In this document: one piece after another, positions 3,786-9,664 of the stretch
Layout of the letters: every line of letters starts with the position of its first letter
Position numbering within the stretch: the stretch's first letter is position 1
Assembly: GCA_018669975.1 (NCBI GenBank)
Contig: JABHSK010000009.1
Coordinates: 115,127-164,709, forward strand
Reading direction: 5' to 3'
Source of the DNA: Candidatus Parcubacteria bacterium
GTDB lineage: Bacteria; Patescibacteriota; Patescibacteriia; UBA1558; GWA2-36-10
DNA: 49,583 nucleotides
Notes under the pieces: model-generated
What the model saw: only the letters and a program-made list of their open reading frames with translations
Database searches by the model: none
What the model was told of the DNA's origin: nothing
Position numbers and translations under genes: made by a program

Positions 3786-4355
3786 TTATTTATTTACTAA
3801 TTGTAGCGCCTGCTTAATACGTGTGGCTAAATCCGTTTCATCTTTTGGTAGATCCTTGATAATCTGCTGCGCTTCATTTTGTTTGTACCCCAAAGACACC
3901 AATGCGTTTACTACCTGTCTATCACTACTGGTCACCACAGATGCTTCAGATAAATCAACAATGAATTTCTCCTTAAGCTCTACCACCAGGCGTTCAGCGG
4001 TTTTTTTACCAATTCCAGACACCTGCTGCAACACATCATAATCACCACTAGTGATGGCTCGCTTAAGCTCCTCAACCTCTGCCAACGCCAAAACATTAAG
4101 AGCGCTTTTTGGTCCCACTCCAGATACAGAAATAAGCTTCTTGAAAAAATCCAACTCCTCAAAATCGGCAAAGCCATAGAGATCAAAGGCATCTTCTTTT
4201 ATATATGAGTGTATAAAGTACTCTTGTTCTTTATCAATTTGAGCCTTTTCCAAATTTTTAGCACTCAAAAACACCTCATAACCAACCCCACTATTTAACA
4301 AAACAATGGATCGATTGGTTTTATTAATTGTCTGTCCTTTTATAAAAGCTATCAT
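3786..4355 (-). CDS. ruvA: Holliday junction branch migration protein RuvA
   Basis: GVGPKSALNVLA and GIGKKTAERLVVELKEK HhH motifs, MIAFIKGQ N-terminus, C-terminal ALVSLGYKQNEAQ. Confidence 0.95.
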   Translation of the reverse strand: MIAFIKGQTINKTNRSIVLLNSGVGYEVFLSAKNLEKAQIDKEQEYFIHSYIKEDAFDLYGFADFEELDFFKKLISVSGVGPKSALNVLALAEVEELKRAITSGDYDVLQQVSGIGKKTAERLVVELKEKFIVDLSEASVVTSSDRQVVNALVSLGYKQNEAQQIIKDLPKDETDLATRIKQALQLVNK

Positions 4356-4404
4356 GGGCTTATTTTATCAGAATTTTCAGACAAATTCAATCACAAGCAA
4401 GTTA

Positions 4405-4433
4405 TTGACATTAGCGCTCCAATGTACTATATT
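4405..4433 (+). promoter_or_regulatory. Sigma70-type promoter TTGACA-N17-TATATT upstream of the 4500 gene
   Basis: Read directly; spacing 17 nt. Confidence 0.7.
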
Positions 4434-4499
4434 GGGTCATTGTGCGAGGTAAATTCCCTTATATCGCTATGAACCTTCAAAACCCGAAAGGAGACTCAC

Positions 4500-7827: not shown

Positions 7828-7959
7828 TTATTTTTTAAACAACCAAAAAACACCCCAATCGCGCAAGAGTGCTTTCCGGTCTGTCCTATTGTCTTGGACA
7901 AAATAAATTTTGCCTATCTCAAAAACCTTTTTAACAAAGGCGTATTGAGATAATGGCAT
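7828..7959 (-). CDS. Possible 43-aa small protein MPLSQYAFVKKVFEIGKIYFVQDNRTDRKALLRDWGVFWLFKK
   Basis: ORF read by hand on minus strand, protein-like composition, but no clear SD. Confidence 0.3.
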   Translation of the reverse strand: MPLSQYAFVKKVFEIGKIYFVQDNRTDRKALLRDWGVFWLFKK

Positions 7960-7979
7960 TATACCAAACTTTCAAAAAC

Positions 7980-8008
7980 TTGACAAACGTTATCCACAGC
8001 CTTAATAT
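7980..8008 (+). promoter_or_regulatory. Consensus promoter TTGACA-N17-TAATAT with an exact DnaA box (TTATCCACA, 7990-7998) in the spacer
   Basis: Read directly. Confidence 0.75.
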
Positions 8009-8014
8009 AGGTAA

Positions 8015-8222
8015 TATTACATATAGAACCTTACATATAGATGGACTGTCAGGGGTTAGTCCTTGGAAAACCTGAAAGGCCCTCATTGGCCAGCAAGCAC
8101 CCATCGTCGGGTAATAAGATTTGCGCCCAATGTAGGCCGCTATGGATTTCAGCTTTCCGAGTGTCTCGGTACCCTTGGCAGTCCACCATTTTATTCGACT
8201 CTACTTCGGTAGAGTCTTTTTT
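8015..8222 (+). ncRNA. Putative rod-shaped structured ncRNA (6S-like topology, identity unknown)
   Basis: Strong promoter; 15-bp closing stem 8042-8056 / 8171-8185 (UGGACUGUCAGGGGU/ACCCUUGGCAGUCCA); inner stems UUGGAAA/UUUCCGA, CUGAAA/UUUCAG, GGCC..CAUUGG/CCAAUG..GGCC; terminator GACTCTACTTCGGTAGAGTC-T8. Confidence 0.75.
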
Positions 8223-8292: not shown

Positions 8293-9393
8293 TTACTGCC
8301 TAATGGGCATTATTAAATAAACATACTTATCATCACCAGTTGATTGTACTAGCCCTGGTGAAGCGTTGTTGTTAATCTTTACAATTATATCATCGCCATC
8401 GATATTACTCAGACCATCTAGTAGGTAGCGGTGGTTAAAAACTATGTCGTTGTCGCCGCCTTTAATCTCAGCTGGGACCTTGGCCACACTAGTACCCGTA
8501 TTGGACGCTGTGGTGGCTACTACGATCTCCTGAGCCTTACTGTCAAAGGTTAGTTTAATGTCATTGATGCCCTGCTTACAAAATAGAGCAACCGATTTTA
8601 TAGCTGGCGCTAATTTACTAGCCACACACTTGATGGTGGTGGTAAAATCGTCTGGAATAATTTGGGTGTAGTCTGGGTATTTACCATCAATTACTCTGGA
8701 AATTAATTCCACTCCATCGAAGACAAACATGATTTGATTTTCATTGAAGTATATTTTTAGTTTTTGATCATTTTGTTCACCCAAAATACGCAATAATTCC
8801 TGTAGGGTTTTCAGAGGAACAATCAAATCTTTTTCTTTGTCATTTTGGATATCAACTTTCTTTTCTGCCAAACGATAACTATCAGTAGCTGCTAGAATTA
8901 GTTTGTTTTTAGTAAAATTAAAGTTAACCGCGTTAATCTCTACTCGTGAGTTGTCCAATGAAGCAGCAAAGATGGCCTGGCTAAGGCTTTTTCTAAATTC
9001 AGCCACCGGCAACTCCACTTCGTTTTCTTTTTCAATCTCTGGAATTAGTGGAAAGTCCTCTGCCTCCATACCACTAATAACTGTTTCTTGATTTTTGGTT
9101 TTAACCTCTAGGTTTTCTTCTTGCAACTTCATTTCAATATTCTCCCTGGGTAACAGGGATACAAAACTATTAAGAAGTTTGGCGTCAACGGTATATTCAC
9201 CGATATCTTCTATTTTACTCCTAACAAAAACCTTAATGCCAATTTCTAAATCAGTAGTTATTAAATTAAGCCCCTCCTTGTCTGCTTTTAACAATACGTT
9301 GTTTAGGATAGGTAGGTTACTATTCTTATTGGCAATATGAGATACTAATCCCAAACCTTTATTTAAATTTTCTTGTGTGCAAATTATCCTCAT
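8293..9393 (-). CDS. dnaN: DNA polymerase III subunit beta (sliding clamp)
   Basis: MRIICTQENLNKGLGLVSHIANKNSNLPILNNVLL, DSYRLAEKK, C-terminal YVYLIMPIRQ; adjacent to dnaA. Confidence 0.97.
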   Translation of the reverse strand: MRIICTQENLNKGLGLVSHIANKNSNLPILNNVLLKADKEGLNLITTDLEIGIKVFVRSKIEDIGEYTVDAKLLNSFVSLLPRENIEMKLQEENLEVKTKNQETVISGMEAEDFPLIPEIEKENEVELPVAEFRKSLSQAIFAASLDNSRVEINAVNFNFTKNKLILAATDSYRLAEKKVDIQNDKEKDLIVPLKTLQELLRILGEQNDQKLKIYFNENQIMFVFDGVELISRVIDGKYPDYTQIIPDDFTTTIKCVASKLAPAIKSVALFCKQGINDIKLTFDSKAQEIVVATTASNTGTSVAKVPAEIKGGDNDIVFNHRYLLDGLSNIDGDDIIVKINNNASPGLVQSTGDDKYVYLIMPIRQ

Positions 9394-9664
9394 ATTATTA
9401 GTTATTATTTTTTTATATATATAATAGGTAGTAGTAGTAGGGACTGTTGATATGTTAATAAGTCTGGAAAAATCTTTAGTTTTGTTTTACTTTTTGAAGA
9501 TTTTTGGGGAAAAGTGCCAGTGGATAATATTGTGTTTAACTGTTGATGTCTGCCCGAGTAGTCAACAGGCCTAGGTTGCTCGTTTTTACTTGGTTGATAA
9601 CTTCTTGTTTATCAACAGGGTTTTCAAGAGGTGTAAATAGACTTAGTAATAAGTTATAAACAAT
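9394..9664. other. dnaA-dnaN intergenic region, candidate oriC area
   Basis: AT-rich, one near-consensus DnaA box on minus strand (TTATCCACT, 9519-9527) and TTTATCAACAG-like sites. Confidence 0.45.

Follow-up and report, generated by a model that had tools for sequence, protein, structure and literature searches.

In Escherichia coli, promoters such as those of dnaA, mioC and nrdAB are regulated by DnaA. A single DnaA box makes a weak DnaA site. Patescibacteria have very reduced genomes, and little is known about the timing of their replication. Our search for papers on DnaA-regulated small RNAs, outside which most subscription journals lay, found none on point. A DnaA box at a fixed spacing from the promoter of a conserved small RNA near the origin would, if true, tie DnaA directly to an RNA regulator in a way that can be tested.

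The locus described here lies in a patescibacterial stretch of 49,583 nucleotides (the window) and contains a rod-shaped structured RNA on the plus strand. With 6S RNA (SsrS, RF00013) the rod shares its shape, a long closing stem and the arrangement as a free-standing gene with promoter and terminator. Ms1 RNA of Actinobacteria is described as structurally related to 6S RNA (PMC9130861); what our rod has in common with it, a rod-like, abundant-type RNA class of 6S-like shape, is a matter of resemblance only. The locus as a whole appears to be a divergent pair of small-RNA genes adjoining oriC, in which the -35 elements of the two predicted promoters overlap on opposite strands in the common stretch TTGACAA/TTGTCAA (Table 1).

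Table 1. Features of the locus and 6S RNA candidates of the same genome (G000). Coordinates refer to the window unless another locus is given.
Feature	Position	Strand	Remarks
Conserved sRNA	7845..7953	-	about 109 nt; z -4.3; invariant GCGCGA loop in terminator hairpin
sRNA promoter, TTGTCA-17-TATAAT	7958..7986	-	11/12 matches; TG before -10
Rod RNA promoter (predicted), TTGACA-17-TAATAT	7980..8008	+	10/12 consensus matches
Exact DnaA box TTATCCACA	7990..7998	+	inside rod promoter spacer, just upstream of sRNA -35
Rod-shaped structured RNA	8042..8185	+	144 nt; closing stem of 15 pairs, 8042-8056 with 8171-8185
Intrinsic terminator of rod RNA	8197..8222	+	
dnaN, DNA polymerase III beta clamp	8293..9393	-	Pfam DNA_pol3_beta domains
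dnaA-dnaN spacer, likely oriC	9394..9664		DnaA-box-like sites and DnaA-trio-like GGTAGTAGTAGTAGGG; GC-skew minimum in region
6S RNA (R2 match)	G000:C3:107956-108096 (L073 1501-1641)		68.9 bits; near ndk; missed by Rfam
6S RNA (R2 match)	G000:C6:8868-9020 (L094 1501-1653)	-	47.5 bits; near ndk; missed by Rfam

Rod-shaped RNA next to dnaN

The first-pass annotation of this DNA had described an origin-proximal rod-shaped RNA adjoining dnaN-dnaA, with an exact DnaA box in the spacer of its promoter. The location is supported by the GC-skew minimum of the window, which is found at about 9-13 kb, at dnaA/dnaN, and by the sites in the dnaA-dnaN spacer (Table 1). All the motifs of the promoter were likewise found in place, i.e., the -35 element TTGACA (7980-7985), the -10 element TAATAT (8003-8008) and the 17-nt spacer AACGTTATCCACAGCCT with the box in it. 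Between the promoter and the rod there is a tandem repeat, TTACATATAGAACC / TTACATATAGATGG, at 8017-8044.

The closing stem and the rod were confirmed by folding. The minimum free energy (MFE) is -65.1 kcal/mol (z -5.5), which was equalled by none of the 200 shuffled sequences, and the opposite strand folds less well (-56.0, z -3.4). In the ensemble computation both the MFE structure and the centroid are an almost unbroken rod. The GC percentage of the rod is 53%, vs. 39% for the window. A scan for long-closing-stem rods adjoining terminators found no second such combination in the 49.6-kb window, and the same kind of scan in the other fetched dnaN loci gave two further rods, in L046 and L047, the latter apparently lying inside a coding sequence. 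We regard the rod as a structured ncRNA other than 6S, probably lineage-specific and presumably transcribed independently.

That the region is a small protein gene is very improbable. A frame of 61 codons (ATG 8041 to TGA 8228) is indeed open across the whole rod, but it extends into the terminator, no ribosome-binding site was seen by eye, and the very strong fold together with the lack of a Pfam match or of any relative found led us to judge such a gene unlikely.

Relation to 6S RNA and other known families

Scans of the rod against Rfam (release 15) at gathering and relaxed thresholds returned chance or terminator matches only. The check with the 6S/SsrS model that had been proposed in the first-pass annotation came out negative, with no RF00013 match at the locus, and the Rfam scan, used also to look for homology to Ms1, gave no match in that case either. 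When a Patescibacteria 6S model (R2, see below) was applied with the filters off, the rod scored 0.3 bits in its own orientation. Two R2 matches sit elsewhere in the genome (Table 1), which rules out the rod as its 6S locus; because of these two RNAs and the lack of an R2 score we do not consider the rod to be 6S RNA.

The structure leads to the same result. The 6S-like layout had been proposed partly on a possible 3' hairpin, CCGAGUGUCUCGG. The sequence exists at 8157-8169, but the hairpin has a probability of 0.4% (0.004) and costs 3.8 kcal/mol, and a large central bubble of the 6S type is therefore absent from the ensemble. A large bubble open on its 5' strand and carrying a short hairpin on the 3' side being absent, the rod was rejected as 6S by structure also, and it differs from 6S RNA in having neither a sequence or covariance match nor the bubble. 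A 6S-like RNA with its own DnaA-controlled promoter, as originally suggested, and with binding to RNA polymerase, would account for the long closing stem, the rod shape, the terminator and the box within the promoter spacer. We consider it highly improbable given the results above, and in addition the rod and the box are not inherited together across the relatives.

Small bacterial SRP RNA (RF00169) was dropped as a candidate for the rod on two grounds: the core motif, a GGAA apical loop with an AGCAGC internal loop, was absent by eye, and scanning the complete genome with RF00169 produced no hit reaching E 0.001. Given the latter result, the SRP RNA of the genome may be divergent.

An apparent 6S RNA family

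RF00013 is nearly blind in the class: none of the 285 genomes was over the cut-off, and there were two weak matches only, both from the same family (f65). Model R2 was built from five weak loci of that family. In the window's order it matched 27 of the 36 genomes when hits up to E 1 were accepted, the weakest matches being partial, and in the class it matched 43 of 285 at E 0.001. In the R2 alignment, which was fitted to the model itself and from which the covariation figures come, 94.4% of the cells are paired and covariation is strong, with a score of 0.624 that shuffling lowers to 0.222 and sliding to 0.130 or less. An NDK-coding sequence is present in 28 of 32 R2 loci. No paper on point was found in a search for 6S RNA in Patescibacteria/CPR (most subscription journals were outside the search). 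From the weak RF00013 matches, the structure and the covariation we infer that the R2 loci are functional 6S RNAs. The analysis uncovered, in part of the class, an apparent ndk-adjacent 6S family that is missed by Rfam release 15 at the cut-off.

Distribution of the rod among relatives

No homologue of the rod was found by DNA search in the 20 other genomes of the family, and its covariance model (R1) gave no convincing match in the other 35 of the 36 genomes of the order. R1 is, however, a weak, single-sequence model that fast-evolving rod homologues could escape. Neither the search for the closing-stem pattern in genome and viral contigs nor the comparison of the rod DNA with phages gave anything outside its own genome.

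In some relatives, different structured elements occupy the interval from dnaN to the next RNA (the slot). The slot promoters of L032 (TTGACA-17-TATTAT) and L051 (TTGACA-17-TAATAT) are convergent with dnaN and have no box in the spacer, and their RNAs have no detectable homology to the rod. Conservation of the box within the spacer, which had been named as a check of the original proposal, was not observed, the rod having been found in no relative. When run unfiltered on the slot RNAs and the 6S loci, R1 reached 17 bits at best (L051), both strands scoring alike, which is not convincing, and blastn and nhmmer searches of the rod against the same sequences found nothing. Rod-like RNAs with similar closing stems, each accompanied by promoter-like and terminator-like signals, occur downstream of the conserved sRNA in L040 (about 4350-4480; stem GGUCGCUGCGG/CCGCAGCGACC) and L046 (1044-1160; stem GAUUGCUGUGGAG/CUUCACAGCGAUC).

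Conserved sRNA and the DnaA box

Fifteen of the 21 family genomes carry the minus-strand sRNA downstream of dnaN, and the extended -10 region of its promoter is conserved among the relatives. The sRNA has no Rfam match. Outside the family its model (R3) gave weak matches only (E 0.0003 or worse), read here as generic terminators. Of the divergent pair, it is the conserved member and probably the ancestral one.

In 7 of 15 genomes the 110 nt preceding the sRNA -10 element contain a DnaA box having no more than one mismatch, vs. 0.54 in shuffles, none of 400 being as high. At -41 to -34 from the -10 element, a box-like 9-mer (at most one mismatch) begins in six of the 15 genomes, vs. 0.11 expected from the box density in the same loci; as these positions were picked after inspection, the figure of 2e-9 from the Poisson calculation is optimistic, but the excess is still large. 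With the rod, for which no homologue was found, no such conservation of the box is seen. Nine genomes have no box at -41 to -34, and in several of them these positions run into the end of dnaN. The orientation of the box differs even among close relatives, while its spacing is constant. The genomes having it belong to three separate, well-supported lineages in the dnaN tree, the order of lineages being unresolved. In the sister lineage L031 the sRNA is retained, a weaker box (TTGTACACA) lies at -38, and there is no rod. DnaA itself retains the box-reading signature GGRDHTT in its C-terminal domain (PF08299 match). Elsewhere in the genome, three exact DnaA boxes lie within 100 bp upstream of an ECF-type sigma factor-like gene (L095 1239-1339; G000:C3:141538-141638), possibly a site of DnaA titration or control.

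Proposed DnaA control and its alternatives

Because the box goes with the sRNA across the relatives and not with the rod, the sRNA promoter is its likely owner, and the DnaA signal most plausibly belongs to this promoter rather than to that of the rod. The explanation we lean toward, with a confidence just short of one half, is that the promoter of the conserved sRNA is where DnaA acts, and that the rod is a lineage-specific ncRNA with a promoter blocked by bound DnaA. The nine genomes without a box at the favoured spacing count against it, as does the weakness of a single box as a DnaA site. The box would lie at about -50 to -42 from the sRNA start site, just upstream of the -35 element, a position that is activator-like for the sRNA; DnaA bound there could contact RNA polymerase and adjust sRNA expression over the replication cycle. 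In the window's species the rod promoter would stand back to back with the sRNA promoter, so that the box falls in the rod spacer, and the rod promoter would be blocked either by bound DnaA or by polymerase on the sRNA promoter, yielding a reciprocal switch. In this explanation we infer the transcription of both RNAs, the binding of DnaA, the sign of regulation and the targets of either RNA. Of the DnaA-regulated regulatory RNA originally suggested, the link between DnaA and the locus has gained support from the relatives, but the box accompanies the minus-strand sRNA and not the rod. A more ambitious version, in which DnaA in this family directly switches between two back-to-back regulatory RNAs by oriC, tuning the GCGCGA-loop sRNA and blocking the rod, and thereby couples the initiation of replication to an RNA-level programme, is rather unlikely.

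The main competitor treats the rod as a structured ncRNA of unassigned partner and the box as either a chance 9-mer or a titration site of the origin region, without effect on either promoter. With the origin placed in the dnaA-dnaN spacer by the GC skew and the box-like sites, approximately 1.4 kb from the box, a scattered origin-region box is conceivable, and the genome contains 25 exact boxes vs. 15 in the reversed control. Also listed on this side is the frequency of an exact box in the spacer, for promoter-like sites no rarer than roughly 1 in 100 per window (expected number approximately 0.01 at 10 or more of 12 matches and 0.04 at 9 of 12). The excess of boxes that the relatives show at a single, fixed distance to the sRNA promoter speaks against it, and we regard it as unlikely. 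Since the rod promoter has the box in its spacer, DnaA may also control the rod itself. Taken as the whole explanation, in which the box would be no more than a site of repression that lies close to the sRNA promoter by coincidence, this is improbable: at the sRNA promoter, box-like sites persist in relatives lacking the rod, and the spacers of the convergent slot promoters in L032 and L051 contain no box.

Comparison with known DnaA-regulated promoters

The locus shares with the DnaA-regulated promoters of E. coli a DnaA box within or adjoining a sigma-70 type promoter. Unlike in those systems, both products here would be small RNAs, transcribed back to back beside dnaN, and the binding of DnaA is a predicted one.
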